This document shows positions 9,843-44,674 of a stretch of 64,000 bases of DNA, one piece after another. The notes beneath the pieces were generated by a model that saw only the letters and a list, made by a program, of their open reading frames with translations, did not search any database and had not been told where the DNA came from. Position numbers and translations under genes: made by a program. The stretch spans positions 1 through 64,000 of the forward strand of contig JALEPJ010000018.1 of NCBI GenBank assembly GCA_022766385.1, read 5' to 3'. The DNA comes from Rikenellaceae bacterium. Its GTDB lineage: Bacteria; Bacteroidota; Bacteroidia; Bacteroidales; UBA932. Positions within the stretch are counted from its first letter, which is position 1; each line of letters begins with the position of its first letter.

Positions 9843-9886
9843 AGAAAAATAGGAGGATTAAAACGTTCGTTTTTCGTTACAATTGG

Positions 9887-9894
9887 TATATTTG
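9887..9894 (+). promoter_or_regulatory. -7 box TATATTTG immediately upstream of ppa start
   Basis: TATATTTG-CAAAT-ATG; 5 nt between box and start codon. Confidence 0.55.
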
Positions 9895-9899
9895 CAAAT

Positions 9900-10538: not shown

Positions 10539-10562
10539 TCCGCACTTTATATGTTTTTTTTG

Positions 10563-10600
10563 GACGGTACTATGATTTTTTATGGTTCCGTCTTTTTTTT
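10563..10600 (+). terminator. Intrinsic terminator after ppa
   Basis: gacggtac...gttccgtc imperfect stem followed by tttttttt. Confidence 0.7.
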
Positions 10601-10660
10601 GTAGCAAACCATATGTTTCAGTTGTCCAATGTCTGAAAGCTTTCAATAACAAGCTAAAGA

Positions 10661-11751: not shown

Positions 11752-11880
11752 TCCACTGAAGGCGAGGGAATGTCATTGCCATAGCATAATATCAAAATAT
11801 AGCTATTCTTTTGGTAATCAAAGGAATAGGCTTTGAGTCCATCTTTCGACAACTCATCATCACACTTATAATGTAAGAAA

Positions 11881-11910
11881 CCGACCCTTTTGGGTCGGCT
11901 TCTCGTTTTC
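11881..11910. terminator. Intrinsic terminator
   Basis: ccgaccc-tttt-gggtcgg stem followed by a T-rich tract (cttctcgtttt). Confidence 0.7.
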
Positions 11911-11987
11911 TATAATCTGCAATGCTTTATCAGCTTAACGCTCTGGTTCCGCTGAGCAGCATTGCTGATTATCTGATGTTGGGAAAA

Positions 11988-14342: not shown

Positions 14343-14410
14343 AACTGTTTGTATTGGTATTTGGTTTTATGTGTAGCCAAAAAATGGCCAATAAATATAA
14401 GTATTTTTTT

Positions 14411-14418
14411 TAAATTTG
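14411..14418 (+). promoter_or_regulatory. -7 box TAAATTTG upstream of dus
   Basis: 8 nt before ATG 14427. Confidence 0.45.
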
Positions 14419-14426
14419 TCTGTGAA

Positions 14427-15461: not shown

Positions 15462-15470
15462 GTTTTTCTT

Positions 15471-15478
15471 TATTTTTG
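15471..15478 (+). promoter_or_regulatory. -7 box TATTTTTG immediately upstream of lpxK
   Basis: TATTTTTG-TACT-ATG; 4 nt between box and start codon. Confidence 0.45.
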
Positions 15479-15482
15479 TACT

Positions 15483-16637: not shown

Positions 16638-16648
16638 CAGCGGAAATA

Positions 16649-18826: not shown

Positions 18827-18832
18827 AGAGAT

Positions 18833-20302: not shown

Positions 20303-20305
20303 GAT

Positions 20306-21637
20306 ATGAAAAGAATCCTGTTGATGCTCTCAGCACTGCTCTCAATGAGCCTGTTGTCCTACTCGCAGGAAGGATATGTTCCAAGTGCTGAGAACATTGC
20401 CGCTCGAGAACGTTTCTCTGCAGACCGTTTTGGAATCTTCATCCACTGGGGCATCTATTCGATGCTCGGGGACGGAGAATGGGTGATGCATAATAAAAAC
20501 ATTGATTATCAGGAGTATTCAAGATTGGCGCAGGGCTTCTGCCCATCCAAGTTCGATGCTTCGCAATGGGTGAGTGCCATCAAGGGTTCAGGCGCGAAGT
20601 ACATCACCATCACCTCCCGTCATCACGACGGATTCTCGATGTTTGACTCAAAGGTTTCCGATTACAATGTGGTCGATGCCACACCTTTCGGACGCGACGT
20701 GATAGGTGAACTGGCTGATGCTTGCTCCGAGCAGGGCATCAGGCTCCACCTCTACTACTCCCATCTGGACTGGGGGCGTACCGATTACGCACCCAAGGGT
20801 CGCACGGGACTTGGCACCGGACGCCCTGAACCTGAAGACCAGGAAGCGAGCTGGGAGCACTATATGGCCTTTATCGACGCCCAGCTGACCGAACTCCTCA
20901 CCCAATACGGTCCTATCGGAGCCATTTGGTTTGACGGCTACTGGGACAAGGACGCGTTGAACCGTGAGGAACTCCATAAGGTATGGAAACTCGACCATGA
21001 GTATGAGCTGATCCACAAGCTACAGCCAGCCTGCCTGGTGGGTAACAACCATCACGTCGATACCTTCCCGGGCGAGGACATCCAGATTTTCGAGCGCGAT
21101 GTTCCGGGACACAATGATTACGGCTACTCCACTCAGCAAATCTCCAGACTTCCACTCGAGACCTGCCAGACTATGAATGACAGCTGGGGCTATCGTATCA
21201 AGGACCTTAACTACAAGAGCCCTGAGTATCTCATCAAGTATCTTGCACAGACTGCAGGCAAGGGAGCAAATCTTCTCCTGAACATAGGCCCCCGCCCAGA
21301 CGGAACCCTTCCTGAAGAAGCCCTCACCAGACTTGAGGCTATGGGCAAATGGCTGAGTGTCAATGGAGAAGCTATCTATGGAACAGAGGCCGGATATGTT
21401 CCTGAGCAGCTTTGGGGCGTTAGCACGCAGAAGGGCAACAAGCTCTATATACACGTCCTTGAATGGCAGGAAAGCATACTCATTCCATCAGGCAGGAACA
21501 GAGTCCTGTCTGCTTATCAGCTTGACGGAGGCCGTAAGGTGGAATTCACCCGGGACAAGCAGTCCATCAGGATTCAGGTTCCTCGTAGCAGCGATCCGGA
21601 CCAGGTGATAGTACTCGAGTTCAAAGAGAATCTCTAA
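20306..21637 (+). CDS. Alpha-L-fucosidase (GH29), secreted
   Basis: RFGIFIHWGIYSMLGDGEWVMHN, ITSRHHDGFSMFDS, GAIWFDGYWD. Confidence 0.94.
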   Translation: MKRILLMLSALLSMSLLSYSQEGYVPSAENIAARERFSADRFGIFIHWGIYSMLGDGEWVMHNKNIDYQEYSRLAQGFCPSKFDASQWVSAIKGSGAKYITITSRHHDGFSMFDSKVSDYNVVDATPFGRDVIGELADACSEQGIRLHLYYSHLDWGRTDYAPKGRTGLGTGRPEPEDQEASWEHYMAFIDAQLTELLTQYGPIGAIWFDGYWDKDALNREELHKVWKLDHEYELIHKLQPACLVGNNHHVDTFPGEDIQIFERDVPGHNDYGYSTQQISRLPLETCQTMNDSWGYRIKDLNYKSPEYLIKYLAQTAGKGANLLLNIGPRPDGTLPEEALTRLEAMGKWLSVNGEAIYGTEAGYVPEQLWGVSTQKGNKLYIHVLEWQESILIPSGRNRVLSAYQLDGGRKVEFTRDKQSIRIQVPRSSDPDQVIVLEFKENL

Positions 21638-27676: not shown

Positions 27677-27769
27677 ATCAGTCGGTTTATTTTGCAAATA
27701 TACTCAATAAAATGTCATGTTCTTATGATGTAAGCGCTCTATTTCATGGCTTATTATCTGAAAAACATT

Positions 27770-27777
27770 AATTTTGC
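27770..27777 (+). promoter_or_regulatory. -7 box TAATTTTG upstream of susC-like operon
   Basis: TAnnTTTG, 26 nt before ATG 27804. Confidence 0.5.
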
Positions 27778-27803
27778 AGAATTGTTCGACTTAGTAATTG
27801 TTA

Positions 27804-30710
27804 ATGAGAAGATTTAAATACTTTCTGGTAATGCTCTTGACCTTTGCTTCCGCAATGGGTTCTTCTGCCCAGACACGCGTAAAGGTCAGCGGAGTGATTA
27901 CTTCGTCTGAAGATAAGCAGCCGCTTATCGGAGCTGCTGTGATGGATGCTGCCGGCAATGGCGTCATTACCGACCTCGACGGACACTATGAGATTGTGGC
28001 GGACAGCGGGAGCGAACTGCTTTTCAGTTGCTTCGGCTATGTAGATGAAAAAAGGCTCGTACCAGATGCTCCTTCCTGCACCATTGACGTGGCTATGGAT
28101 ACCGAGAGCCTGAAGCTTGAGGATGCCGTGGTGATTGCTTATGGTGTGCGAAAGAAAGGCACTGTAGCAGGTTCCGTTTCCACGGTCAAGGCCGACAAGC
28201 TGGAGAATACTCCTGTTCCCGCTTTCGACCAGGCCCTTCAGGGTCAGGTAGCAGGACTCAGTGTGCTCTCCTCCACCGGTGAGCCGAGTGCATCTGCGAC
28301 TATGGTCATTAGAGGAACAAACTCTATCAATTCCGGCACCGCTCCGCTTTACATTCTGGATGGTGTAGCCATCTCTGCTTCGGATTTCAATACCATCAAT
28401 CCTGCCGATATCGAGAGTATGTCTGTGCTCAAGGATGCCTCTTCCACTTCGATTTACGGAGCGCGCGCATCCAACGGTGTGATTGTCATCACCACCAGAC
28501 GCGGCCGCAATATGGATAAGGCCAATCTCAGCCTGAAAGCCCAGTTCGGTGTTTCTTCAATCGCTTATGGCAATTGGGACTTGATGAATACTGCAGAGAG
28601 AATACAGTATGAGAAAGAGACCGGAATGGATGCCGGCCAGAATTATGAACTGCTCTCGAAGACAGATGTGAACTGGCTGGATGCGGTGTTCAACAAGGCC
28701 GCACTCCTGCACAACTACGAAACCTCGGTATCGGGCGCCACGGACAAGACCAATTATTTCATTTCCGGAGCTTACTACAATCAGGATGGTATCGCTCCAT
28801 CATCTGGTTTCGAGCGCTACTCGTTCCGCAGCAACTTCGAGCAGAGGCTCAGTTCCAAGGTCAAGGCCGGCGTGAATGTGATGTTCAATTTTCAGAACAT
28901 ACAACAGGCCGATGAAGGCAATTATACCCTCGTTACCCCTATTTCCGCAGCCCGCTTCATGCTTCCATATTGGAATCCTTACCGCGAGGATGGCTCGCTG
29001 ACCTCCATTTCTGACGGCAGCTGGAAAGGACAGGGACAGAACCCGCTGGAGTGGATTGCCAACAATCCTATGAAGTACAAAAAGTACAAGACTATGGCAA
29101 TGGGCTTCGTTGAGGCTGAGCTTTACAGGAATCTCGTCTTCCGTTCGCAGCTTTCCGCCGACTATTCGCACGCCACGGGCTTCGGCCAGTCCTTCCCGAG
29201 CTATACTCCGAACCAGGGCGAGGGTACGGCTTCCAGATCTTCAAGTGACGGGCTCAACCTTCAGATTTCCAATACTTTGACATACAAGTTCAATCTTGAT
29301 GGCATCCACGATTTCACCTTCCTGCTCGGACAGGAGGGGGAGAACTATCACGCGGAAGGCTTCTCCGTGACAGGCAAGGGACAGACCAACGATCTGCTCA
29401 CCGACCTTGCCTTTGCCACCAGAGTCACTTCCTGGACCAGTTATGCTGACCAGGACTATTCCAGAATATCCTTCTTCGGAAGAGGGGAGTACAGCTATCT
29501 TGATAAATACTATCTGGAAGGCTCTCTTCGTACCGATGGATCCTCTCGCTTCGGAAAGAACAAGCGCTGGGGAATGTTCGGCGCTGTGGGCTTTATGTGG
29601 AACCTGCGCAATGAGGACTTTGCGGCCTCTGCCCGCGATTGGTTAAGCAATGCTCAGATTTCCTTCAGCAGCGGTACAGCCGGCAATTCATCCATCCCCA
29701 ACTACGAGCACCTCGAACTTATCGGAGGCAATGGTAACTATGTGGGTGACAGCGCGATGCGCCCTGTACAGCCGGGCAATGAGAGCCTTAGCTGGGAAAG
29801 CTGTTGGACCACCAACCTCGGTTTTCACGCCGCTTTCCTGAACCGCTTGAACATTGACCTCGAATTCTATAATAAGTATACTACGGATATGCTGATGGCC
29901 GTACCTCTGTCCTATGCTCAGTCGAATGGCTATGGTTACCGCTGGGAGAACGTGGGACGTATGGTGAATGCAGGAGTCGAGTTCAACATATCCGCCGACC
30001 TTGTCAGGGCAGGGGATTTCTCATGGAATCTGAATGCCAACTTCGGCTATAACCTGAACCGCATAACTGAGCTCTACAACGGAGTCGATGAATATGAAAA
30101 CGCCAATACCAATACCAAGCTTGTAGTGGGACATCCACTTGGTGAGTTCTATATGAACCGCTTTGCAGGAGTCAACCCGGCTAACGGTGACGCTCTTTGG
30201 TATGACAAGGACGGCAATATCACCAACGTGCTCCGTGACAGTGACAGGGTACTCCTGGGCAAGAGCTGCAATGCTCCATGGCAGGGAGGTTTCGGTTCCG
30301 CCCTCTCTTGGAAAGGCCTGAGCCTAAGCGCCCAGTTCAGCTGGGTGGCAGGCCGCTATATGGTCAACAATGACCGCTATTTCGATGAGTCCAACGGCCG
30401 TTTCGCGACTTACAATCAGTCCCGCAGGCTGCTTGAGCGCTGGAAGGAGCCTGGAGACATTACGGACATCCCACGCCACGGTGTATTCACCGAATTTGAC
30501 AGCCGCCTGCTCGAGAACGCCTCTTTCCTCAGACTCAAGAACCTGATGCTGTCTTACAGCTTTCCAAAGGCGAGGATTTATGCACAGGCTCAAAACCTCT
30601 TTACCCTGACCGGTTTCAGCGGACTGGATCCTGAGGGCGTGGCCAATATCTATGCGGCCCAGTACCCTATGTCCCGCCAGTTTACCTTCGGACTTGACCT
30701 GATGTTCTAA
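27804..30710 (+). CDS. SusC/RagA family TonB-linked outer membrane protein
   Basis: CarboxypepD_reg-like N-domain, plug DQALQGQVAGLSVLSSTGEPSASATMVIRGTNSINSGTAPLYILDGV, C-terminal QFTFGLDLMF. Confidence 0.97.
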   Translation: MRRFKYFLVMLLTFASAMGSSAQTRVKVSGVITSSEDKQPLIGAAVMDAAGNGVITDLDGHYEIVADSGSELLFSCFGYVDEKRLVPDAPSCTIDVAMDTESLKLEDAVVIAYGVRKKGTVAGSVSTVKADKLENTPVPAFDQALQGQVAGLSVLSSTGEPSASATMVIRGTNSINSGTAPLYILDGVAISASDFNTINPADIESMSVLKDASSTSIYGARASNGVIVITTRRGRNMDKANLSLKAQFGVSSIAYGNWDLMNTAERIQYEKETGMDAGQNYELLSKTDVNWLDAVFNKAALLHNYETSVSGATDKTNYFISGAYYNQDGIAPSSGFERYSFRSNFEQRLSSKVKAGVNVMFNFQNIQQADEGNYTLVTPISAARFMLPYWNPYREDGSLTSISDGSWKGQGQNPLEWIANNPMKYKKYKTMAMGFVEAELYRNLVFRSQLSADYSHATGFGQSFPSYTPNQGEGTASRSSSDGLNLQISNTLTYKFNLDGIHDFTFLLGQEGENYHAEGFSVTGKGQTNDLLTDLAFATRVTSWTSYADQDYSRISFFGRGEYSYLDKYYLEGSLRTDGSSRFGKNKRWGMFGAVGFMWNLRNEDFAASARDWLSNAQISFSSGTAGNSSIPNYEHLELIGGNGNYVGDSAMRPVQPGNESLSWESCWTTNLGFHAAFLNRLNIDLEFYNKYTTDMLMAVPLSYAQSNGYGYRWENVGRMVNAGVEFNISADLVRAGDFSWNLNANFGYNLNRITELYNGVDEYENANTNTKLVVGHPLGEFYMNRFAGVNPANGDALWYDKDGNITNVLRDSDRVLLGKSCNAPWQGGFGSALSWKGLSLSAQFSWVAGRYMVNNDRYFDESNGRFATYNQSRRLLERWKEPGDITDIPRHGVFTEFDSRLLENASFLRLKNLMLSYSFPKARIYAQAQNLFTLTGFSGLDPEGVANIYAAQYPMSRQFTFGLDLMF

Positions 30711-30712
30711 AG

Positions 30713-32227
30713 ATGATGATTATGAATAAGATATACAGCCGAATACTGATACTGGGCAATGCTCTACTGCTCTCCGTGTCCTGTCTGGACAAGACACCCG
30801 GAGACTACATCCCTATTGACAATGGTATGGCTTCCGTCACCGACGCAGAGCAGATTGTCAACGGAATCTACAATACTCTCAAGAGTGGCAGCCTTTACAG
30901 CGGCTACCTGACTCTCTGCCCCGATATTCAGTGCGATCTCGTTCACGCTGTCCAGGGCAACTCAAACAGCTATGTGAACATCTGGCAGTGGGACATCCTT
31001 TCCAGCAACAGCTATATCGAGTCCGTCTATGCTGGCCTGTATGCAGTAATTGGACAATGCAACTACTATCTTGACAAGGTAGCCGGGCTAAAGGCCAGCC
31101 TCACTGACGATGTGAAAATCCAGCAGCTCGATGCGCTGACAGGAGAAACCTATTTCTGCAGGGCTTTGGCATACAGTGAGCTCATCAAGCTTTTCTGTAA
31201 AGCCTATGAGCCTGAAAGTGCTGAAAATGAGCTCGGAGTCGTGCTCGCCACCAGCTATTTCGACGAGAAGCCAGCTCAAAGGGACAATCTCAAGAATTCT
31301 TGGCTGCAGGTCATCAGCGACCTCAGCGAGGCTGACAAACTCCTTGATCCGGCTGACAACTCCTTCGATGCAGTTTATGCAAAGAACGGAGCAGTGCACG
31401 CTCTTTGGGCCAGGGTCGCCCTTTATATGCAGGATTGGGATGCTGCCATCGAACACTCTTCGGTTTTGATTGACGACAATGCGGATGCCTACAGACTGGC
31501 GGATTGCAATTCAAGATATAACTCGAGCACAAGCCTCCTCCAATATCTCTGGAATGATGATGCTTCGTATGAGAACATCTTCAAGCTGGGTTATACCTCG
31601 ACCTCATACGGCTCTCCTATCGGCTCCGTGTTCCTTAACTTCACCCGCGACTTTTACTACTATTATCCGGACTTCGTGCCTTCGCAGTCCGCCCTTGACC
31701 TGTACCAGAGCGCCGACCAGCGCTACAATTGCTATTTCCGCAGCTTGCAGACCGGTTACAGCCATCAGCTCAACTGGCCTCTGCTGATCAAATATTATGG
31801 CAATGAAGCCCTCATTGCCTTGAAAATCTATCACGTCAATATGCCGAAGGTGCTCAGGCTTTCGGAGCAGTATCTCATACGTGCGGAGGCTTGGTGCCAC
31901 AAGGGCAATTTCGCCAAGGCCAGTGCGGATTTAAGCACTCTGCGCGCCGCCCGCTTCACCACCGGAGGCAATATTTCGGTAAACGAATCCAACTGGCTGG
32001 AGACCATTTCAGAGGAAAGGGTGAGGGAGCTTTATATGGAGGGCTTCCGCCTGATGGACCTCAAGCGCTGGCATATGGGCTTCGAAAGACAGGAGCAGGC
32101 TTCCTGCGTGGCAGAGGGAGGCTCTCTCAAGATTGAGGCTGACAACCCTCTCTTCGTATGGCCTATACCTCGCAATGAGCTCGAGGCTCCGGGTTCGCAG
32201 ATTCAGCCTAACGAGAGCAACAGATAA
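30713..32227 (+). CDS. RagB/SusD family nutrient uptake lipoprotein
   Basis: Lipobox ...LLLSVSCLDKTP; ERVRELYMEGFRLMDLKRW; follows susC by 2 nt. Confidence 0.96.
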   Translation: MMIMNKIYSRILILGNALLLSVSCLDKTPGDYIPIDNGMASVTDAEQIVNGIYNTLKSGSLYSGYLTLCPDIQCDLVHAVQGNSNSYVNIWQWDILSSNSYIESVYAGLYAVIGQCNYYLDKVAGLKASLTDDVKIQQLDALTGETYFCRALAYSELIKLFCKAYEPESAENELGVVLATSYFDEKPAQRDNLKNSWLQVISDLSEADKLLDPADNSFDAVYAKNGAVHALWARVALYMQDWDAAIEHSSVLIDDNADAYRLADCNSRYNSSTSLLQYLWNDDASYENIFKLGYTSTSYGSPIGSVFLNFTRDFYYYYPDFVPSQSALDLYQSADQRYNCYFRSLQTGYSHQLNWPLLIKYYGNEALIALKIYHVNMPKVLRLSEQYLIRAEAWCHKGNFAKASADLSTLRAARFTTGGNISVNESNWLETISEERVRELYMEGFRLMDLKRWHMGFERQEQASCVAEGGSLKIEADNPLFVWPIPRNELEAPGSQIQPNESNR

Positions 32228-32231
32228 CAAA

Positions 32232-33140
32232 ATGAAAAGGACTATATATACAATTACTGCTCTGCTCGCCTTCCTGCTGCTTGCAGGGGCCTGCGTTGAG
32301 AACAGGAACATCTACGATGCTGAAGAGTATGTGATGTTTGCCGACACCCTCAAGGTCTATCCGGTCCAGGAGGATGTGGAGTATTTCAGTGTACCTGTCG
32401 TATCCACGGTTAGCAGGGATTATGACAGAACCTTCGGCGTAGAGATTATCGATAAGGGAAGCGACGCTACGGAGAACCTCCACTACCGTCTGGCATCCAA
32501 CAGCGTGACCATAAAAGCGGGTGAGACCCGTGCCGATGTGCTTGTGCACGGCATCTATGACAATCTTGATCCGTCTTCGACTCCTACCTTCACTCTGGCC
32601 CTGGTGATGCCGGAAGCCCTGGAGATGCCCCTCTACGGAAGAAGCACCAAGGTTGGACTGCAGAAATGCTGTCCTTTCGACATCAACGCTTTTACCGGCT
32701 GGTGCGTGCTCTCTTCCACTTTCCTCCAGTCCTTCAACCCTTACGGCTCATATCAGAGGCTGGTCAGGACATCCTTGAATCCGGACAGGCCGAACAGCAT
32801 TATCTGCCACAACTGGATGCTCAAGGGTTATGACATCGAACTTGATTTCGATGACTCGGATCCTCTTGCGCCTACAATGGACCTCCCTGAGGGCCAGACT
32901 ATGAGCGATGAAGGCTCGTTCTTCGGCCAGACCCACGGAGACGACCGCATACTCATCAGGAAGAGCAATGTCTATCCTTCCTATTTCAGCAGCTGCGGCA
33001 ATTATCTCTATGTCTGGACCCAGATGTACGTATATGATTTGAATACCTATTTTGGCAGCGTCGGCCATTTCTACACAGTAATGGAATGGGTAAGTGACGA
33101 AGAGGCTGAACGTCTCCGCCGCGAGGGTATGGCAATGTAA
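32232..33140 (+). CDS. DUF4843-like lipoprotein
   Basis: Start refined to MKRTIYTITALLAFLLLAGACVENRNIYD; YVMFADTLKVYPVQEDVEYFSVPVVSTVSRDYDRTFGVEI resembles DUF4843 proteins that follow SusD. Confidence 0.8.
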   Translation: MKRTIYTITALLAFLLLAGACVENRNIYDAEEYVMFADTLKVYPVQEDVEYFSVPVVSTVSRDYDRTFGVEIIDKGSDATENLHYRLASNSVTIKAGETRADVLVHGIYDNLDPSSTPTFTLALVMPEALEMPLYGRSTKVGLQKCCPFDINAFTGWCVLSSTFLQSFNPYGSYQRLVRTSLNPDRPNSIICHNWMLKGYDIELDFDDSDPLAPTMDLPEGQTMSDEGSFFGQTHGDDRILIRKSNVYPSYFSSCGNYLYVWTQMYVYDLNTYFGSVGHFYTVMEWVSDEEAERLRREGMAM

Positions 33141-33162
33141 TTACTATCTAATTCTACAAATA

Positions 33163-35475
33163 ATGAGAAAAACTTTATTTAAGGCAGCGTCTGTGGTTTT
33201 TGCCGCTTGCTGCGTATTCGCAAGTTCTTGCCAAGGGCCGGAAGATATCAAGCCGGTCTTTCCTGAAAATGAGGTCATTCTGACTCTTCAGTCAGGACAA
33301 AGTACAGATATCAAGTTCACAGCCAATATGGATTGGACAGTGAAAGTCAGCGGTGATGGTGCCGGAAACTACTTCGGAATACTTGATGCCGGCATTATGG
33401 AGACCTCTGTCAGCGGACAAGCAGGTGACCAGACAGTCACAGTAGGCTTTACCGATGATATCGAATTCGATGTCGACCGCGTTTGTACCGTGACCCTTGA
33501 GATGGGCGGTGAATCAAAGGAAATCGCCAAGCTCACCAAGATGCGCGGCAACCGTGTGCTCAGCATCTATGTTGCAGAGACCGATGATTTCGATTTCAAG
33601 AAGTCAGAAGACGCCTATGTATATGGAAGCGAGCCGGTGTCAAGCCTTGAACTTGTTACCTTCCCCGGTAGCACTGTCTATAGCATCCCTGTCAAGGTGG
33701 TTGCGAACTACAAGTGGTTGCTCAATACCAATTCAGAGTATCTGACTGCAAGCGTAAGCGAGGCATCGTCGGATTCAGAGGCTACCGAACTTCTTCTTAC
33801 TCTCACTACAGATGAATCTCTCGCTGCAGGTGCTACAATCGAGCTTAGCTTCCTCAGCTCAGCTTCATCCGATGCTGCTTCCTATCCTGTCAGCCTGACC
33901 GTTCCTGCTTTTGGCAACAGAATGGAAATCGATTGCCAGTCAACGCTTTACTTCAATAAGGCTGGAGAACTCAAGATGCCTACCGGAAGCTTTGCCCAGA
34001 ATCCGGCTATCTGCTACCTCCTTGCAGCCAAAGGCGCTAAGGTAAGGGCTTTGGAATGGAATGCAGAGCAGGGCTGGTACGACGTCAGTTATGCAGCCTG
34101 GGTTGGCTGCGAGCTCAATTTCGATGAGAACGACAGCTATCTCCAGTCCGCTACCGCTTTGATCAGTGTTGAAGCCAACGACGGCGCTGAGAGATATGCT
34201 GACATTATGGTGCTCCCTGCATCCATTGCCAACACTTCAGCAGAGGATCTTTGCACGGAAGACGGCAGCGCCATCAAGGAAGAATATAAGCAGTATCTTG
34301 TCGGCAGACTCACCCAGGAAGGTCTTAAACCTGATTTTGTAAGCCTTGACCCTGATGCAGACAACTACAAGGCTACACTTGAGAAGAACGCAGCCGGTAC
34401 AGATTGGATGAAGGATCAGTTCGGCACCGATGAAATCTATACTCTCACATATTCTGACCCTTATTCTGAATCTGCTCTCGTTTTCCTCCAGGCCGTAAAT
34501 GCCGAGATTTATGACTACGACTGCAACCGGGTATCGGAAAGCGCTCTGAGTACTTTCTGGCTCGAGTTCAACTCATTCGCTATGAACAAGAAGGGCAGGG
34601 TTTATATGTATCCTGATGCTTATGTAGCTTCTTCTGGCGAGAATCCTGAGTCGTTTATCCTTCTCAAGGATGCATCGGGCAATGCTCTTGCTCTCATCGA
34701 TTGTGTTTACAATGAAGCCGGTGGCTCCGAAAGCGGTGAAATGTTCAGCATCAGCCAGGGAAACGGAACTGTGACCAGACTCACTTCCGGTGACTACTAT
34801 GAAGGCATCTGCGGCAATTACAGCGTCAGTGAGGTTTATGATATCACTGTCTCAAGTGCTGCTACCATAATCAAGTCTGCAACCGCTCCTTCTGCTTTCA
34901 ATATTTACAATATGGAGCTCTCGCTAATCAAGGACGGCAGCCTCATGATTGAAGGCCACACAAGCAACGAGTTCTATGTATACGTAGGTGATAATGTCAG
35001 CGAGAAGACTTCTTGGATTGTAGTCGGAAAGGATTATAACGGCGTTAACTACGCAGCTTTCATCTTTACCTATGACCCTAATGCAAGTGGTTCAAAATCA
35101 ATTTCATTCGCATATCCGGAATATGTAAAGAACGCTGAAATCACCAAGTACAGCGGCAGCCTGCTCGGTAATATCAAGAACGAGCACTACGGTGTTGACG
35201 AAAATGTGATTTATGAGCTCAAGTACACTGGTGAGCCTCAGATGGCTCTTCTCAACGTGCCGGGAGAGCCTTACGGTCAGGCTGCTTGGAATAACTTCGA
35301 TGAGTCAACCTACAACCCTTATCCGAACTATTGGCTGACTTACGAGATGGAGGGTAGCTCACAGATGTATGTGAATATGGCTGAGACAGGAAAGTCTGAC
35401 TGGTTTGTCTGGATGGATAGGGATACCTACAAGCCAATTCTCATTCTCGTATGCACGGCTGTTGCAGCCAACTGA
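33163..35475 (+). CDS. Large lipoprotein with BACON-like N-terminal domain (putative surface binding protein)
   Basis: Start refined to MRKTLFKAASVVFAACCVFASSC; VILTLQSGQSTDIKFTANMDWTVKVSGD resembles BACON/DUF5003-type proteins. Confidence 0.72.
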   Translation: MRKTLFKAASVVFAACCVFASSCQGPEDIKPVFPENEVILTLQSGQSTDIKFTANMDWTVKVSGDGAGNYFGILDAGIMETSVSGQAGDQTVTVGFTDDIEFDVDRVCTVTLEMGGESKEIAKLTKMRGNRVLSIYVAETDDFDFKKSEDAYVYGSEPVSSLELVTFPGSTVYSIPVKVVANYKWLLNTNSEYLTASVSEASSDSEATELLLTLTTDESLAAGATIELSFLSSASSDAASYPVSLTVPAFGNRMEIDCQSTLYFNKAGELKMPTGSFAQNPAICYLLAAKGAKVRALEWNAEQGWYDVSYAAWVGCELNFDENDSYLQSATALISVEANDGAERYADIMVLPASIANTSAEDLCTEDGSAIKEEYKQYLVGRLTQEGLKPDFVSLDPDADNYKATLEKNAAGTDWMKDQFGTDEIYTLTYSDPYSESALVFLQAVNAEIYDYDCNRVSESALSTFWLEFNSFAMNKKGRVYMYPDAYVASSGENPESFILLKDASGNALALIDCVYNEAGGSESGEMFSISQGNGTVTRLTSGDYYEGICGNYSVSEVYDITVSSAATIIKSATAPSAFNIYNMELSLIKDGSLMIEGHTSNEFYVYVGDNVSEKTSWIVVGKDYNGVNYAAFIFTYDPNASGSKSISFAYPEYVKNAEITKYSGSLLGNIKNEHYGVDENVIYELKYTGEPQMALLNVPGEPYGQAAWNNFDESTYNPYPNYWLTYEMEGSSQMYVNMAETGKSDWFVWMDRDTYKPILILVCTAVAAN

Positions 35476-35487
35476 TAACAATTTGAA

Positions 35488-38097
35488 ATGAATTTCTCCA
35501 AAATACTGAAATACAGCATTCTGGGCCTGCTTACCTTTATACTGTCCAGCTCTTGTGTCCGGGAAGATGTCCCGGACCTGAGGGACAGTGACTACGGTTA
35601 TGTCCAGTTCAAAGTATATAAGGAGGCTTCCTACACCAAGGCCTCCAGCCTGGAATATCTCCGGGATGCATCCAAGGTGATGGTAATGCTGAAGTACGGT
35701 GATGTACAGATTAGCCAGACCCTGACTTTGTCCTATTCCGATGAGGAGTCGGCCGAATTCGGTTTGCGCAGCGCCAAACTCAAACTGCTCAAGGGAGAAT
35801 ATGACGTAGTCGCATATACCATATTCGACAAACTCGACAACGAGGTCTATAAGGGCGGCGCCCGCGGCAGCTTCGAGGTGACTGAGGGCGGTCTGACCGT
35901 TCACGACCTTACGGCTGACGTAGTGGCCAGGGGCAAGGTACGCTTCAGCTTCGTCAAGTATTTCCTGTCCGGCACCAAGGCCGCAAGCAGGGAATATACC
36001 TTTGATGAGGTGTCAAAGGTGGATCTTGTACTCCGCAACAGCACAAGCGGTGTCCGTACGGCTGTTAAGGGCCTGAAAACCAAGTTCTCAACCCACTTCT
36101 ACGACAAGGACGAGGTGGAAGACGGCTATATGACCTCAAGCTTGAGCTGCGACAGCCTCGTCAGCCTCAGGGCCGGCCGCTATGTAGTCGAGAACTACAG
36201 CCTCTTTGACAAGAGCGGAGAACTCCTGGAGCTCGCGGAGCCCGTTGAGGAGACAGCCTTCGAGCTCAAGGACAATACCACCGCTGATGTGGAAGTACCA
36301 GTGACAATGAACGAGTCTGCAGCCTATATCAAGGATTACTATGCTCTCAAGCAGATTTGGGAGTCCCTCGACGGCCCGAACTGGTATTATTTTGGAGAAG
36401 ATTGGCCTAACGGGGCCAATTGGGATTTCAACAAGTCCCCGGATCTTTGGGGCGACCAGCCGGGAGTGCAGCTGCATTCCAACGGCCGAGTTGCGCTCAT
36501 CAATATTAGCGACTTCGGTTTCCGGGGAGACCTCTCCCCGGCAATCGGACAGCTCAGCGAGCTGGTCGAACTCTACCTCGGCTCGCACAATGATCTGAAC
36601 CTCGTCGAATTTGATCCGACGATGGAAAGCGGCGGCGGCAAGGCTGCCCGTATGGAGCGTCACAAGCAATACCTTTCGATGCTTCATCCTATGCACCAAC
36701 TTTCCGAGCCTGTAGCCAGGGCCCTCAAGGAGCACGAAATCAGCATCCCTGAGATTGCCCTGTATGACCGTTATTCGGAGGCTGAAATCTTTGCAATGGA
36801 GAATGAACGCAGTATTTCACCTCGGGACATTACCATAGGCAAACTGGTGAACGGACTGCGTTCATTGCCGGCTGAAATAGGAAAGCTCAGCAAGCTCGAG
36901 CGCCTTTATATTGCCAATGGCGAACTCACCGACCTGCCTGCCGAGATGAGCAGGCTGGAGTCGCTGCTGGAGCTTGAACTTTACAATTGCCCGAAGATGA
37001 CACGCTGCCCCGAGGTGCTCGGACAGATGCCGGGTCTTGAGGTGCTCAATATGGGAGCGAATCCGCAACTGCTTGATGGTGAGCCGGAAAGAATCATTGA
37101 CCTGCTCTCGAAGAGCCCATCCGCTCCTCTTATCCAGATACTCTACCTGAACAAGGGCAATATGCAGGTGCTTGACGGAGCCGCTATTGCCAAAATGACC
37201 AAACTTGGCCTGCTTGACCTTTCGGACAACCGTATCGAGACCATTACCGAGGCCTTCGGCAATGAGGTGGGGCCCGTTCAGCTCTACCTGAACAACAACC
37301 GTCTTTCTTCCTTCCCTGTGAACGAAGACGGAGTATTCTGCAAGATGGAGGATATCGAGACCTTCAGTGTCAGCAACAACCTCTTCACTGAGTTTCCTGA
37401 CATCTTCTCATCCAAGTCCATCTTTATAATGGGTTCCGTTGACTTCTCCTTCAACCACATTTCCGGCTTTCAGAATGCCGGTAACGGCTACAAGGGCATC
37501 AATGTTACGACACTTACCCTGAACAACAATCCGGAACTGACAGTATATCCGGCCTGCCTGGCCGAGTCTGGCTCCATCATTGCCAACCTCGCCTTCAGGG
37601 GCTGCTCTCTCGAGCGCTTCGAGGAGGGCTGCTTCACAGGTGACAAGGTGGTCAACATTCAGTCTCTGGACCTCTCGTACAATCACTTGACCAAGCTTTC
37701 AGAGGAACTCATTGCTACCAATGTTCCTTACCTCTATGGCGTGGATCTTTCTTACAACCGCTTCTCGAAGTTCCCGTTCGAGCCTTTGGACTGTGCCGGC
37801 CTTACTGTGCTGGGTGTCAGGGGTCAGCGCAATGAGGCGGGGGAGCGCTGTCTGAGCCAGTGGCCTACAGGTATCTACAAGCATAAGGGCCTCAGGGGCC
37901 TTTATCTGGGCTCAAACAATCTTGGCAAGATTGACGACACCATCTCCACATTGATCTATTTCCTGGATATCAGCGACAATCCGGAAATTATCTTCGATGC
38001 CAGCGATATCTGCGCAGCTTATGCGAACAAGGTTTATTACCTGATATATGACAAATCGCAGGAAATACGCAATTGTGAGTACATAGAACTGGATTGA
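35488..38097 (+). CDS. Leucine-rich-repeat lipoprotein with DUF4458-like N-terminal domain
   Basis: Lipobox LLTFILSSSC; cap ALKQIWESLDGPNWYYFGEDWPNGANWD; repeats such as LGLLDLSDNRIETI, VQLYLNNNRLSSFP, LDLSYNHLTKL. Confidence 0.86.
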   Translation: MNFSKILKYSILGLLTFILSSSCVREDVPDLRDSDYGYVQFKVYKEASYTKASSLEYLRDASKVMVMLKYGDVQISQTLTLSYSDEESAEFGLRSAKLKLLKGEYDVVAYTIFDKLDNEVYKGGARGSFEVTEGGLTVHDLTADVVARGKVRFSFVKYFLSGTKAASREYTFDEVSKVDLVLRNSTSGVRTAVKGLKTKFSTHFYDKDEVEDGYMTSSLSCDSLVSLRAGRYVVENYSLFDKSGELLELAEPVEETAFELKDNTTADVEVPVTMNESAAYIKDYYALKQIWESLDGPNWYYFGEDWPNGANWDFNKSPDLWGDQPGVQLHSNGRVALINISDFGFRGDLSPAIGQLSELVELYLGSHNDLNLVEFDPTMESGGGKAARMERHKQYLSMLHPMHQLSEPVARALKEHEISIPEIALYDRYSEAEIFAMENERSISPRDITIGKLVNGLRSLPAEIGKLSKLERLYIANGELTDLPAEMSRLESLLELELYNCPKMTRCPEVLGQMPGLEVLNMGANPQLLDGEPERIIDLLSKSPSAPLIQILYLNKGNMQVLDGAAIAKMTKLGLLDLSDNRIETITEAFGNEVGPVQLYLNNNRLSSFPVNEDGVFCKMEDIETFSVSNNLFTEFPDIFSSKSIFIMGSVDFSFNHISGFQNAGNGYKGINVTTLTLNNNPELTVYPACLAESGSIIANLAFRGCSLERFEEGCFTGDKVVNIQSLDLSYNHLTKLSEELIATNVPYLYGVDLSYNRFSKFPFEPLDCAGLTVLGVRGQRNEAGERCLSQWPTGIYKHKGLRGLYLGSNNLGKIDDTISTLIYFLDISDNPEIIFDASDICAAYANKVYYLIYDKSQEIRNCEYIELD

Positions 38098-38099
38098 GT

Positions 38100-39749
38100 A
38101 TGAACATAAACAAGATATATCTTTTATCGGTGTTGGCTGTCCTTTCCCTGAGCTCCTGCGTAGAAAGCAACGAGCCCGGCTTTGAATTGGATACCGACAG
38201 CATAGAAATAGATGCTGCCGGTGGACAGGTCAGAGTGATGCTGGAGTCTCCCGACTCTTGGGTGGCCAAGACCCAGAACCCGTGGATTACTGTCACTCCT
38301 GCCAACGGAATAGGTTCGACAGAATGTACCATAATGATAGATTCGGCCTTAAGTGTGAGCCCGAGAGAAGGTCTGGTGAGAATTGAAAGATTGGGCAGCG
38401 GTGAACGCAAGGACATCAAACTGCACCAGGATGGCTTTGATTATCAGATTGCCGCCAGGACCAATACGGTGAGCCTCAAGAGCTATGCCCCTTTGGATGA
38501 GCGATATTTTGATGTGGTCGTGGATGCAAACCTGCCTTTTACCGTGGAGATACCTGAGAAGGACCGCGTATGGCTTTCCTGCTCGGTTCCGGAACTGGTT
38601 CTCGACAGGGGAGCGCGTCCGCGCAGCGTGACTGTCCGCTTCTCCTGGGACCTTAATTTCACCCAGGACCCGCGTGCTACGAAGGTCGAATTGAAGCCTC
38701 TTGCTTCTGAGAGCCCAGTGGCGCTCACGAAGGGTGTAGCTGTTTCACAGGCTGCCGCGGATGCCATTGAAATAGGCGTCAAGGGCGATTCCCTTGCTCT
38801 GATTGCTATAAGTCAGGCACTGGATTGCTGGGCTTCCTTCGACACATCCGAAAGAATGGAGCATTGGAATGGTGTGACCGTCTGGAAATCGGGACCGAAC
38901 AAGGGCCGCGTACGCTCTGCCGCTTTCAAGCTCTTCTCTACCAAGGAAGGCCTTCCTTTCCAAGTGAAGTATCTAACCGCGGCTGAGGAACTCACTTTCT
39001 TCGGAAACTCGAACACCTTCCTTAAGAACCTGGATCCGGGAGAGCACATTTGCGAACTTACTCAGCTCAAGCGCTTGAATATCAGTGCTTACGGCTTGGT
39101 TTCCCTGCCGGAAAGTTTCACCAGACTGAAGAATCTGGAGTATTTGAACCTATCCAGCAACAACTTTGCAAGCCTGCCGGCCATACTCACTCCTGAGAAT
39201 TTCCCTAAGCTTCACAGTCTTATCCTGAACGCCAACCAGCGCCACGTATATTACGACCTATCGAACACCGTGACCAAGGATTTGGGCGGTTTTATCGATG
39301 AATCGGATACTGACGAGTCCCAGAACAGATCCTTCCCTCTGCGTCTTCTGCGCTGGAGCCAGCTCGACACGCTCGTGCTCTCAGTAAACTACCTTCAGGG
39401 CAGCATCCCTGAGCTCAGCGACAACCCTGACTTCCCGAAATGGACTGCCGAAGAGGTTAATGCCTGCGACACCCTCCCTTCAAGACTCATAGGACTGCCA
39501 AAGGTTCTGCCGAACACAACTTTGTTCACTATGAACCTGAACCGTCTGAGTGGAACCCTGCCGGACTGGCTGCTCTATCATCCTTGTCTTGACCTTTGGG
39601 TTCCGGATGCCCTTGTATTCCCTCAGGAGGGCAAGGACCAGAAGGGCAATAATTGCGGTTTCACCAATGAGCCGGCAAATCTTGACTACTACTACAAGGA
39701 GTATGTCAACAAGAAGTACAATCCAAAGAATATGCAGACAAGCCGATGA
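38100..39749 (+). CDS. BACON domain + leucine-rich-repeat lipoprotein
   Basis: Lipobox LLSVLAVLSLSSC; VRVMLESPDSWVAKTQNPWITVTPANG BACON signature; LEYLNLSSNNFASLP LRRs. Confidence 0.84.
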   Translation: MNINKIYLLSVLAVLSLSSCVESNEPGFELDTDSIEIDAAGGQVRVMLESPDSWVAKTQNPWITVTPANGIGSTECTIMIDSALSVSPREGLVRIERLGSGERKDIKLHQDGFDYQIAARTNTVSLKSYAPLDERYFDVVVDANLPFTVEIPEKDRVWLSCSVPELVLDRGARPRSVTVRFSWDLNFTQDPRATKVELKPLASESPVALTKGVAVSQAAADAIEIGVKGDSLALIAISQALDCWASFDTSERMEHWNGVTVWKSGPNKGRVRSAAFKLFSTKEGLPFQVKYLTAAEELTFFGNSNTFLKNLDPGEHICELTQLKRLNISAYGLVSLPESFTRLKNLEYLNLSSNNFASLPAILTPENFPKLHSLILNANQRHVYYDLSNTVTKDLGGFIDESDTDESQNRSFPLRLLRWSQLDTLVLSVNYLQGSIPELSDNPDFPKWTAEEVNACDTLPSRLIGLPKVLPNTTLFTMNLNRLSGTLPDWLLYHPCLDLWVPDALVFPQEGKDQKGNNCGFTNEPANLDYYYKEYVNKKYNPKNMQTSR

Positions 39750-41761
39750 AAAAGATTTCAGCAATAATTGCAGCCCTGGCCCTTGTGGCTTGTTCGGGTG
39801 TGACGACGGAAACACTGCAGCCTGCCCTCCCCATTTTCGGAGAGGATGTGGTGAAGGGTGAACTTCTCGTCCGTTTCGATGAGAGCGTGGCGGAAATAAT
39901 TGATAGGGCAGGCCTTACCAAGAGCGGTCCTTCAAATGTGATGGAAGCCTGTGCCATTCCTTCGGTTGAGGAAGTGCTGGCCATTGCCGGCAAGTACAGA
40001 ATAGAAAGAGTATTCCCTGTTGACAGCCGCAATGAAGAACTCAGCCGTAAGGAAGGTCTGCATCTATGGTATCGCGTCAGCTTCAGCGAGGACGCCCCCA
40101 TGGACAGAATATATGCCGAGCTCACGAAACTGGGAGAGGTGAGCGCAGTGAACTGCAACCGCCGTCTCAAAAAGAATTATTCCGGCAAGTCTATTGCCTT
40201 TGACCCGGGCAGCTTCATCGCATCTGCTCCTGTTGGTGGCAATATCCCCGGCGGCCGTTTCAATGATGAGCTTCTTCCTTACCAGTGGCATCTCGTGAAC
40301 AAGGGCAGTCTGGGTTCCACCAAATTCCTCAGCGGTGCTGATGTGAATGTGGAGAAGGCCTGGGATCTGTGCACCGGTGACCCTTCCATAATAGTAGCGG
40401 TACTCGATGAAGGTATTGACATTAATCATCCTGACCTCAAGGATGCGCTTTGGGTGAATGAGGACGAAATTTGGCGTTCGCACGAGGACAATGACGGAAA
40501 CGGCTATGCCGGAGACGTTTACGGATACAACTTTGCCCTTGGCACCCCTATCATTTCGACTGATGACAATAATGACAGCGGCCACGGCAGCCACGTCGCC
40601 GGAGTAATCGGAGCCGTCAACAATAACGGGCGCGGCATCAGCTCGATTGCGGGAGGCGACGGCACCAAGCCGGGCGTGCGCATCATGAGCTGTCAGATTT
40701 TCTCCGGAGTCAAGAGCGGCACCGTCCTCGACGAGGTACGCGCCATCAAATATGCCGCCGACAATGGAGCCGTCATACTCCAATGCAGCTGGGGCTATAC
40801 CTCAGGAGCGGCTAATGCCTATGACTGGCAGCCGATGTACAGCACTGACGAGGCCTGGATGGCCGACAATATGCTCGAGCGCAAGGCCCTGGACTACTTC
40901 ATCCACAATGCAGGCTCTCCTGACGGCGTCATCGATGGCGGCATTGCCATCTTCGCCGGGGGCAATGAGAGTGCTCCTGCCGCCGGTTATCCCGGTGCCT
41001 ACGGAGATTTCATCTCTGTTGCTGCCACTGCAGGCGACTGGACTCCGGCCGTTTATACCAATTACGGACCGGGTACCACAATCAGCGCTCCGGGCGGAGA
41101 CCAGGATTATTACTACGAATATGGAGAAGGTTCACAGAAAGGAGCTATAGGTTGCGTTCTTTCGACCTTGCCATCAACCATAACTCCTGACGGTTACGGA
41201 TATATGGAAGGCACTTCTATGGCCTGCCCTCACGTTTCCGGCGTAGTGGCACTCGGACTTTCCTATGCAGCCCGCCTGCACCGTCATTTCAAGTCAGAAG
41301 AAATCATAGAACTCCTTTATTCCAGTGCGACTCCGCTGGAGCAGTTCTGGAATATGGATGAGCCTAAGTTCTATTACAAATACGTCACCGACCTCGGCAC
41401 CAATTATCGTAACTCTATGAACCTTAATTCGTTCAAGGGACGTATGGGTGCCGGACAGGTAAATGCCTATGCCTTCCTCAAGGCCATTGAGGGCGCTGGA
41501 AGCGAGATGAGTTTCCCTAATGTGAGTGTTGCTCCGGGAGCCACAACGAGGCTGGATTTGCTCACTTATTTCGATGACCCTTCTTCCGTGAGCGTCAAAG
41601 TGGATGACACATCAATTGCCACGGCTGCATTGAGTTCAAACAAACTCACAATCAGCGGTCTCGCTGAGGGACAGACTTCCGCTACCATTACCGGTGACGG
41701 CAAGAACTTCCGTTTCGTAGTGAGCGTAAGAAAGAACATTTCCAACGGAGGCTGGCTATAG
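39746..41761 (+). CDS. Subtilisin-family (S8) serine protease, lipoprotein
   Basis: Lipobox MKKISAIIAALALVAC; prodomain-like region; catalytic Asp VAVLDEGIDINHPDL, His GHGSHVAGVIG, Ser GTSMACPHVSGVVALG; C-terminal Ig-like domain. Confidence 0.95.
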   Translation: MKKISAIIAALALVACSGVTTETLQPALPIFGEDVVKGELLVRFDESVAEIIDRAGLTKSGPSNVMEACAIPSVEEVLAIAGKYRIERVFPVDSRNEELSRKEGLHLWYRVSFSEDAPMDRIYAELTKLGEVSAVNCNRRLKKNYSGKSIAFDPGSFIASAPVGGNIPGGRFNDELLPYQWHLVNKGSLGSTKFLSGADVNVEKAWDLCTGDPSIIVAVLDEGIDINHPDLKDALWVNEDEIWRSHEDNDGNGYAGDVYGYNFALGTPIISTDDNNDSGHGSHVAGVIGAVNNNGRGISSIAGGDGTKPGVRIMSCQIFSGVKSGTVLDEVRAIKYAADNGAVILQCSWGYTSGAANAYDWQPMYSTDEAWMADNMLERKALDYFIHNAGSPDGVIDGGIAIFAGGNESAPAAGYPGAYGDFISVAATAGDWTPAVYTNYGPGTTISAPGGDQDYYYEYGEGSQKGAIGCVLSTLPSTITPDGYGYMEGTSMACPHVSGVVALGLSYAARLHRHFKSEEIIELLYSSATPLEQFWNMDEPKFYYKYVTDLGTNYRNSMNLNSFKGRMGAGQVNAYAFLKAIEGAGSEMSFPNVSVAPGATTRLDLLTYFDDPSSVSVKVDDTSIATAALSSNKLTISGLAEGQTSATITGDGKNFRFVVSVRKNISNGGWL

Positions 41762-41762
41762 T

Positions 41763-42533
41763 ATGAAGAGAATGGGTGCAATAGCAGTCTGTGCTCTTGT
41801 CTGCAGTGCAATGCAGGCCCAGATCAGGACGGTCCCCAAGGAGCGTCTTCTGGAGCAGGTCTCGCCCAGGCTCAGCATCGATTCTACGGCTCTTGCCTTT
41901 GAACTTTTGGAACTTGAAACTCCTCCTATGAGTGAGGATTCGGAGCCTGTGAGCCTGGATTTCCCTTTCAGGAACGTCAGTAACAGGGAAATTACGATTG
42001 TGAAGACAGTGAGCAGCTGCAGCTGTGTCCGTGTTTCCCTCAGCCGAAAGATCCTTGCCCCAGGACAGGAAGCCGTCCTGACTGCCATTTACGACCCTGA
42101 AGGCCATCCGGGCAAGTTCAGCCGCCGCATCTTTGTCTATACTGCCGCTTCAGAGCAGCACCCGGCCACTGTGTTGAGGGTCAATGCCGAAGTGGCTCAG
42201 AAAGCAGGTCCTGAGGGGGAATATCCCTATGTCTGTGGCTCGTTGCGGCTTCGCAGGAATTCCTTCGAGCTTTCCAGCAAGCCTGAAACGGTGCACATAC
42301 GCTGTTACAACAGCGGCAGCCGTCCCCTGAAAATCAGTGCAGAAACAGCCTTCATACCCTTTCCGCTCAGCTTCAGTTGCGAGCCTGGAATTATTGCCCC
42401 TGGAGAAGAGGCGGTGCTGATTATGAAAATCGATGCAGGAGCCGCAGCGGACGGCACTTATCCCCTGATACTCAAGGGATGCGGCGCCACGCCGTCTGAG
42501 TCCAGGATTATGATCAAGAAAACAACAGAATAA
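41763..42533 (+). CDS. DUF1573 domain protein
   Basis: FPFRNVSNREITIVKTVSSCSCVRVSLSRKILAPGQEAVLTAIYDPEGHPGKFSRRIFVYT. Confidence 0.88.
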   Translation: MKRMGAIAVCALVCSAMQAQIRTVPKERLLEQVSPRLSIDSTALAFELLELETPPMSEDSEPVSLDFPFRNVSNREITIVKTVSSCSCVRVSLSRKILAPGQEAVLTAIYDPEGHPGKFSRRIFVYTAASEQHPATVLRVNAEVAQKAGPEGEYPYVCGSLRLRRNSFELSSKPETVHIRCYNSGSRPLKISAETAFIPFPLSFSCEPGIIAPGEEAVLIMKIDAGAAADGTYPLILKGCGATPSESRIMIKKTTE

Positions 42534-42985
42534 TGAAAAGAATAAAGACAATACTCCTTCTCTCCCTTTGTGCGCTTCTTTCTGCCTGCAACAAGCCGGC
42601 CACGGAAGAAGAGCCTTATCTCGAGATAAACAGAAACAATATCTCCGGCGTCTGGGAGCTCTCGCAGTGGAATGGCAATGACCTTGCCGAAGGCAGTTAT
42701 TTCCATATTAATCTGGTGCGCAATGACGGCACTTTCACCATACTTCAGAATCTGGATGCCTTCCCTGAGTCCCCGCGTGAGATTACAGGACGCTATGATC
42801 TTGTGCAGGATGACGTTTTGGGTACGGTGATCAGTGGCCTCTATGACCATGATTCGGGTTTCTGGGCCCACGATTATGTCATAAGTAAGCTTACAGCCAG
42901 CTCTATGGTGTGGACGGCAGTGGACGACCCCGACTTTGTACAGCTTTTCAAGCGCATTGAAGTCTCAGAATTCGGAAAAGAATAG
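42533..42985 (+). CDS. Small lipocalin-like lipoprotein
   Basis: Lipobox LLLSLCALLSAC; NISGVWELSQWNGNDLAEGSYFHINLVRNDGTFTI; TAATG overlap with the upstream gene. Confidence 0.7.
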   Translation: MKRIKTILLLSLCALLSACNKPATEEEPYLEINRNNISGVWELSQWNGNDLAEGSYFHINLVRNDGTFTILQNLDAFPESPREITGRYDLVQDDVLGTVISGLYDHDSGFWAHDYVISKLTASSMVWTAVDDPDFVQLFKRIEVSEFGKE

Positions 42986-43054
42986 GGAGTTACGGGCTTT
43001 TGGAACACTGTTTGCTGTCCTTCCACCCGTTTGACCCTGAAATATAGCTATGAT

Positions 43055-44674
43055 ATGAAAAGAATCATCATAAGTTCACTTTTGGTGCTCGCAATGGGCA
43101 CTATCTGCTCGGGACAGTCCAGGAGCTTCAAGCTCGGCCAATGGATCGAGATTCAGAATGCAATACTTAAAGAGCTGAACCAGAGCTATGTGGATTCATT
43201 GCCGCTGGACCGTATCGAACGTGCTGGAATCGATGCCATGCTGGCGAATCTCGACCCTTATACAGTTTACATCCCTGAAGAGGAGGAAGCGGACTTCGAA
43301 ATGATGATCAACAATTCCTACGGCGGTTTCGGTTCAGTCATCTACAAGCCGGAGCTGAATGGCAATGTCATCATCAGCGAGCCTTACAAAGGTACTCCTG
43401 CGGACCGTCTGGGCTTCGTCTGCGGAGATGAGATTATGGCCATTGACGGCGTCTCGGTGCATGGCCTCAGCAGCCAGGAGTGCTCGGACAGGATGAAGGG
43501 CAAGCCGGGCTCGACCGTTGTGTTCACTGTTAAGAAGGTCCGCAGCGGAGAGGTGAAGGACGTTACCGTGACCAGGGAGAGAATCAAGCTGCCCGATGTG
43601 GAATACTATGGTATGCTGGACTCCCACACCGGCTATATCTACCAGTCAGGATTCACCGAGAATGTCTCTTCCGAGATCAAGAATGCCGTCCTCGAGATGA
43701 AGAGGCAGGGAATGGACAAGCTCGTCCTGGATTTGAGGGGCAATGGCGGAGGCATACTCCAGGAAGCCGTGAAGATAGTATCGCTCTTCGTTCCCAAAGG
43801 CTCGCTCATCGTTACTGCCAAGGGCAATGATTCCAGCTACAAGCAAGAATACAGGACTACAGCTGAACCTGTGGATACTGAGTTGCCATTGATAGTGCTC
43901 GTGGATTCAGGCTCTGCCTCGTCTTCAGAGATCGTAGCCGGAGCGCTTCAGGACCTGGACCGCGCCACCATTATGGGTACCAGGACCTATGGCAAGGGCC
44001 TCGTCCAGTCCATACGCACCCTGCCATACAACGGAAAGATGAAAATCACCACCGCAAAGTACTATACTCCTTCAGGACGCTGTGTCCAGGCTATAGACTA
44101 CTCGCACAGGAATGAAGACGGCTCCGTAGGCCATATTGCCGATTCCCTTACCAAGGAATTCAAGACCCTTCATGGAAGGACGGTGCGTGACGGTGGCGGC
44201 ATTACCCCCGACGTTATTTTGGAGCCAAAGGAATACAGTCGTCTCACTTACTCTCTGGTCGCTAACGGTATCCTGAATAATTATGCCATCAAGTATGCCT
44301 GCGAGCACGAATCCATCCCTGCAGTGGATGATTTCCACTTCAGCGATGATGATTATGATGATTTCGTGGAATATGCCAAGACCCGTGAATTCGATTACAG
44401 GTCTTATGCCAAGACCATTTTCGACCAGATGAAGAAGGAACTGGAGCGTGATGATCTGGCGGAAGGGATGAAGGAGCAGCTCGATGCTCTGGAGCAAGCC
44501 CTGGAGATGGATAAGGAAAGCTTCCTCAGGCTCAAGAAGGATGAAATCATACCTTTCATCGAGGAGGAGATAGTGGTGCGCTACTATTATCAGGAAGCCG
44601 GTCAGAAGCTGAGGATCAGGTATGATGAACAATTGAAGAGGGCCCTTGAGAGCCCTCTCATTTCAGTCAATTGA
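43055..44674 (+). CDS. S41 family C-terminal processing peptidase with PDZ domain
   Basis: Start refined to MKRIIISSLLVLAMGTICSG; PDZ GDEIMAIDGVSVHG; DLRGNGGGILQEAVKI; DSGSASSSEIVAGALQD; GTRTYGKGLVQ. Confidence 0.95.
   Translation: MKRIIISSLLVLAMGTICSGQSRSFKLGQWIEIQNAILKELNQSYVDSLPLDRIERAGIDAMLANLDPYTVYIPEEEEADFEMMINNSYGGFGSVIYKPELNGNVIISEPYKGTPADRLGFVCGDEIMAIDGVSVHGLSSQECSDRMKGKPGSTVVFTVKKVRSGEVKDVTVTRERIKLPDVEYYGMLDSHTGYIYQSGFTENVSSEIKNAVLEMKRQGMDKLVLDLRGNGGGILQEAVKIVSLFVPKGSLIVTAKGNDSSYKQEYRTTAEPVDTELPLIVLVDSGSASSSEIVAGALQDLDRATIMGTRTYGKGLVQSIRTLPYNGKMKITTAKYYTPSGRCVQAIDYSHRNEDGSVGHIADSLTKEFKTLHGRTVRDGGGITPDVILEPKEYSRLTYSLVANGILNNYAIKYACEHESIPAVDDFHFSDDDYDDFVEYAKTREFDYRSYAKTIFDQMKKELERDDLAEGMKEQLDALEQALEMDKESFLRLKKDEIIPFIEEEIVVRYYYQEAGQKLRIRYDEQLKRALESPLISVN
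44637..44658. terminator. Hairpin at the 3' end of the S41 coding region, candidate bidirectional terminator
   Basis: agagggc-ccttgaga-gccctct between convergent genes. Confidence 0.45.

Follow-up and report, generated by a model that had tools for sequence, protein, structure and literature searches.

A conserved SusCD operon with receptor-type lipoproteins and an S8 protease as a probable peptide uptake system of gut Bacteroidales

Introduction

Loci built around a SusC/SusD (SusCD) pair are usually interpreted as glycan systems, and in the Sus and levan 'utilisome' polysaccharide utilization loci (PULs) a single operon encodes the pair together with surface lipoproteins and a surface hydrolase. 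Peptides are known ligands as well: oligopeptides were observed in both RagAB and Bt2261-64 (PMC7782687), and RagAB, a system of Porphyromonas gingivalis, imports peptides cleaved by gingipains (PMC11817032). Here we describe a SusCD operon from a gut Bacteroidales genome (Rikenellaceae bacterium, assembly GCA_022766385.1), whose nine genes lie at positions 27804-42985 of the window, that is, of the whole 64,000-nucleotide stretch analysed (contig JALEPJ010000018.1, positions 1 to 64,000). The operon has the utilisome layout of SusCD, predicted surface lipoproteins and a putative surface hydrolase, but its hydrolase is a protease, its receptor-type proteins are of the leucine-rich repeat (LRR) and BACON kinds, it encodes no glycosidase and its SusC falls in another clade. 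With Bt2261-64 (PDB 5fq6) it shares the combination of SusCD and extra lipoproteins, predicted in the window to lie at the surface, although the SusCs are distant (114 bits) and we know of no LRR or S8 protein in that system. RagA is the nearest solved relative of its SusC, RagB is near its SusD, and RagAB works with surface proteolysis, as the window operon would; rag is essentially barrel and lid, whereas the window operon adds seven genes, including the putative receptors and an S8 protease of its own.

The operon represents a variety of SusCD locus that has not been described before, and as annotation it can already be seen in Bacteroides thetaiotaomicron (B. theta). A B. theta transcriptome table lists BT0207 as SusD, BT0208 as DUF4984, BT0211 as BACON, BT0212 as S8 and BT0213 as DUF1573 (PMC10434189); the types and their order match those of the window, a match made by published annotation and not by B. 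theta sequence. This qualifies an earlier sequence-only reading of the window, which had proposed a system for capturing and cleaving proteins or peptides, in that the operon is not unique to this genome. Expression of BT0207-BT0213 was lower under iron depletion, but not significantly so (P 0.08-0.57; PMC10434189). In the open-access literature we found no named function for DUF4984, DUF4458, PF18805 or BT_0206-0213.

A conserved nine-gene operon

The nine open reading frames run in one direction with junctions of 2, 4, 22, 12, 2, -4, 1 and -1 nt, spacings that match the sequence-only reading exactly. A SusC/RagA-family TonB-dependent transporter (27804-30710, on the forward strand like every feature of the operon; TIGR04056, 748 bits) adjoins a SusD/RagB-family lid lipoprotein (30713-32227; PF14322 and PF07980), which is the adjacency of TIGR04056/TIGR04057 and PF07980/PF14322 that marks SusC/SusD uptake loci. 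As read before, seven of the nine products carry a lipobox and SusC and the DUF1573 protein do not; six of the lipobox proteins are encoded downstream of the pair, as auxiliary lipoproteins of such a locus are. Domain searches of the nine products agreed that no carbohydrate-active enzyme is present, and the locus thereby differs from a PUL.

A Bacteroidetes-type -7 box, TAATTTTG, lies at 27769-27776 (forward strand), 35 nt 5' of the susC ATG; the box had been recognized earlier and its position, given as 27770, was off by one base. Among close relatives, TAnnTTTG occurs 28-60 nt 5' of susC in 14 of 21 cases, for a shuffled expectation of 2.7%, and before internal genes in only 2 of 202. Because the box is confined to the head and the gene gaps are tight, a single promoter at the operon head is likely. 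Together with the conserved gene order described below, these features argue for one transcription unit in which all nine genes would be co-transcribed, as had been claimed.

A search of 84,980 genomes with LRR-1 as the query yielded 27 loci, many of them from gut metagenome-assembled genomes of goat, sheep, buffalo, deer and yak, and the same nine-gene order was present wherever the contig was long enough. Housekeeping flanks were common only to the nearest relative; elsewhere the flanks differ. Further loci added two more families, for a minimum of three Bacteroidales families with the operon. About 50 loci share the order SusC-SusD-DUF4984-BACON-LRR1-LRR2-S8-(DUF1573)-lipocalin. The operon starts with SusC and SusD, which are never missing where the contig extends to them, the DUF1573 gene is missing in locus L069, and the lipocalin-like gene keeps its position in the loci with the protease (type A, below). 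Matches to DUF4984 and LRR_10 above the cut-off fell in the identical 8 of 393 genomes of the order, 3-4 kb apart (hypergeometric 7.6e-17 under independence, a figure that ignores shared ancestry), and LRR_10 exceeded the cut-off in 22 of 101 sampled genomes of the genus. Median identity to the window proteins was 66% for SusC, 61% for S8, 56% for DUF4984, 54% for both SusD and LRR-1 and 51% for LRR-2; the faster genes were those for the lipocalin-like protein (47%), DUF1573 (33%) and gene 4, the fastest of all (29%). The shared gene order and the co-occurrence of the two marker families go well beyond chance, and on these comparisons of sequence we regard the nine-gene operon as real and conserved. 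That unrelated lipoprotein genes, served by several promoters, might instead have come to lie side by side by chance is hard to reconcile with the order kept in so many loci, the tight gaps, the perfect co-occurrence of the two markers and the head-only promoter box; we consider this extremely improbable, and the conservation appears to refute it in practice.

The window SusC groups with RagA

Among solved structures, the best relative of the window SusC was RagA (528 bits, with the next SusC at 340 bits), and the nearest relatives of the window SusD included 3kez and RagB. Two SusCs of the same genome served as controls. That of locus L045, which is adjacent to an S8 gene, also prefers RagA (602 versus 377 bits), whereas the L050 SusC prefers 8aa4 (271 bits) over RagA (231 bits), which rules out that RagA is simply the best match for any SusC. 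A first tree comprised the window SusC family, RagA, the levan SusC BT1763, PDB 8aa4 and, from the same genome, ten further SusCs. Support was 1.0 for a clade of the window family, RagA and the L045 SusC, and this clade did not include the genome's starch SusC (L052, beside SusG). A larger tree was built from 20 S8-linked loci and 40 controls, 20 of which were low-scoring SusDs and four of which turned out to be S8-linked. It contained a clade joining RagA with the window SusC family (1.0) and the sister L091 pair (0.986), and apart from RagA and members of the protease-less type B, described below, no S8-unlinked SusC fell within this clade. The trees, which contain few reference sequences with a known ligand, place the window SusC in the RagA clade, apart from the levan and starch SusCs, and they give independent support to the analogy with RagAB peptide import drawn in the sequence-only reading.

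With high-scoring SusDs as controls, a tree had pointed to a single clade of all S8-linked SusCs; this was rejected, since with the 20 low-scoring SusDs included they fell into several clades. One RagA-independent clade of the larger tree (support 1.0) has an S8 subtilase near every sampled member (L092, L094, L096, L097, L098, L100, L101, L103, L107, L110, L144, L148, L149 and L150), and it is possible that it represents a further protease-linked SusCD type. The L045 locus (1454-10337 on contig C33 of the window's own genome) runs SusC-SusD-lipoprotein-S8 and then a beta-barrel-like protein. It resembles the window operon in this order, in its PF16361-type S8 and in the RagA-clade SusC, and differs in lacking DUF4984 and LRR genes and in the barrel-like protein after S8. 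A further S8 protease is encoded on the same contig in L046 (4790-7510); its sorting tail is that of type IX secretion (Por_Secre_tail).

Receptor-type lipoproteins and the S8 protease

Gene 3 (32232-33140), a lipoprotein gene in the SusE position, had been called DUF4843-like, a label that we withdrew: DUF4843 reached only a sub-threshold score, and DUF4984 matches instead (PF16372, E = 4.5e-42). The AlphaFold model of the protein (predicted local distance difference test (pLDDT) score 91.6) has an N-terminal immunoglobulin (Ig)/Calx-beta-like domain, and its best Foldseek matches, which had low overall template modelling (TM) scores, were Bacteroides proteins, either of the DUF1735 type or auxiliary binding proteins of the SusE position. 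Gene 4 (33163-35475) encodes a predicted BACON/Ig-like multi-domain surface lipoprotein. Its description as BACON-like holds by way of its homologues, of which 24 of the 40 aligned matched BACON (best E = 1.5e-17), but not for the window protein itself, which has no Pfam match. Its AlphaFold model (pLDDT 87) strings Ig-like domains together in an all-beta chain, for which Foldseek returned just generic Ig/cadherin-like chains with low TM-scores; modelled in this way, gene 4 appears to encode a fast-evolving BACON/Ig rod.

Both LRR lipoproteins named earlier were confirmed, with refined labels. LRR-1 (35488-38097) carries two DUF4458 domains, LRR_10 and LRRs, and is homologous to PDB 4ecn (487 bits), which we take to be BT_0210, and to 4eco (352 bits). 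LRR-2 (38100-39749) has a weak N-terminal BACON match (E = 7.7e-4) followed by LRRs, and its homologue in L043 matches BACON with E = 9.7e-12.

The S8 subtilase lipoprotein (39746-41761) consists of Peptidase_S8_N (PF16361), Peptidase_S8 and a weak Big_2 match. The catalytic motifs, described earlier as intact, were present throughout the family: the Asp/His/Ser triad and the oxyanion Asn (D221, H280, S491 and N407) are conserved in 34 of 34 sequences, and the protein is predicted to be proteolytically active. After it come a secreted DUF1573 (HYDIN/VesB-like Ig) protein without a lipobox (41763-42533; PF07610, E = 5.6e-19) and, as the ninth and last gene, a lipocalin-like lipoprotein (42533-42985; PF13648, weak and below the cut-off). 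Relatives conserve the lipid cysteines. Several of them show a distinct run of acidic export-type residues after the cysteine (CSDDDD, CKDDDE), a signal that is weaker in the window. On the reading proposed below, the lipoproteins of the operon would be displayed at the surface.

So many LRR and Ig-like lipoproteins might also belong to a locus that serves mainly in adhesion or colonization: host or bacterial proteins would be ligands of the LRR and BACON lipoproteins, and the targets that S8 trims or matures would be a partner or lipoproteins of the operon itself. The divergence of gene 4, the fastest in the operon, is what recognition surfaces show, and in type B loci a third LRR protein takes the place of S8. 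However, SusC and SusD, which lead the operon in every locus whose contig reaches them, are importers by family, and an S8 protein with its full set of catalytic residues directly follows LRR-2 in 44 loci. We therefore consider an adhesion system improbable.

Proposed capture, cleavage and import

We propose that the operon probably serves to capture protein, to cleave it at the cell surface and to import the resulting peptides in the manner of RagAB. At the outer membrane surface, both LRR lipoproteins, together with the BACON/Ig rod and the DUF4984 protein, would capture a protein or glycoprotein for the S8 lipoprotein to cut, and the SusCD 'pedal bin' would enclose the resulting oligopeptides and import them with TonB energy; the operon proteins may form a complex. 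This proposal is supported by the RagA-clade SusC and by the S8 residues that are intact in all homologues. We infer a peptide substrate, and the earlier interpretation as a whole is partly supported.

Several observations weigh against the proposal. S8-linked SusCs also form second and third groups elsewhere in the larger tree. A B. theta mutant in BT_0212, the S8 gene, still cleaved EspB, the sole protein tested (PMC6282197). Because the window S8 has few acidic residues after its lipid cysteine (CSGVTTE, the weakest case, as against CSDDD or CADED in relatives), its surface display is less certain than that of its relatives. Finally, six type B loci from members of four families (L042, L043, L044, L080, L087 and L088) retain SusC-SusD-DUF4984-BACON-LRR1-LRR2 but have, in place of S8 and lipocalin, a third LRR lipoprotein and one other lipoprotein (L042 3721-8320; L043 11632-16246; L044 4088-8464; L080 10812-15550; L087 2908-8352). 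No other protease was recognized alongside in these loci, which suggests that the importer does not depend on S8.

In type A, S8 directly follows LRR-2 (44 loci); in three further loci (L016, L024 and L025) the contig ends before the post-LRR-2 gene. In L075 (1-2145) the operon stops after LRR-2 and unrelated DNA follows, whereas L076 and L077 of the same genus have S8; an insertion, a loss or an assembly break is possible. The third LRR lipoprotein of type B is of the DUF4458/LRR type, and the next lipoprotein, of roughly 350 amino acids, has no Pfam family in L042 and L043, the two searched. L087 and L088 retain DUF1573. In L044 (4088-5287), part of the last lipoprotein gene reads N in the source. 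Genome G227 has a second LRR_10 site (C11) and may therefore carry both types. Since type B keeps SusCD, DUF4984, BACON and both LRR genes, the core would be importer and receptors, and comparison of the loci indicates that the S8 protease is an exchangeable rather than an obligate module. The sequence-only reading had named conservation of SusCD without the LRR and S8 genes as one result that would overturn it. This applies in part: the six type B loci do lack S8, but the LRR genes always stay.

Retention of importer and receptors without S8 would also be expected if SusCD imports a non-peptide ligand, such as a glycan or glycopeptide released from a glycoprotein, with S8 only stripping the protein to expose it and protease-less type B importing this ligand too. 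Folds of the BACON and SusE-position kinds frequently bind glycans. Yet the operon lacks a carbohydrate-active enzyme and its SusC lies in the RagA clade, away from the levan and starch SusCs, and we judge a non-peptide ligand unlikely.

Neighbouring genes

An S41 C-terminal processing protease (43031-44674) begins 45 nt past the end of the operon; it was excluded as a member, being a conserved neighbour only in the nearest relative, L014. Upstream and outside the operon, 6287-21637 holds GH2-like, GH3, M28 peptidase and alpha-L-fucosidase genes.

Discussion

Beyond peptide capture, cleavage and import as such, the operon might, though we put this forward tentatively and with some doubt, be an equivalent of the glycan utilisome that works by proteolysis. 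The LRR receptors, BACON/Ig rod, DUF4984 protein and S8 would dock on a RagAB-like SusCD to form a single outer-membrane machine, type A (protease and lipocalin) and type B (third LRR and other lipoprotein) would be interchangeable, and gene 4 would diversify to follow different protein targets. The proposal that peptides are captured, cleaved and imported can be tested directly, because the tractable B. theta carries the operon and an S8 mutant exists. If it is true, this conserved and widespread operon would be a dedicated protein or glycoprotein feeding route for gut Bacteroidales.

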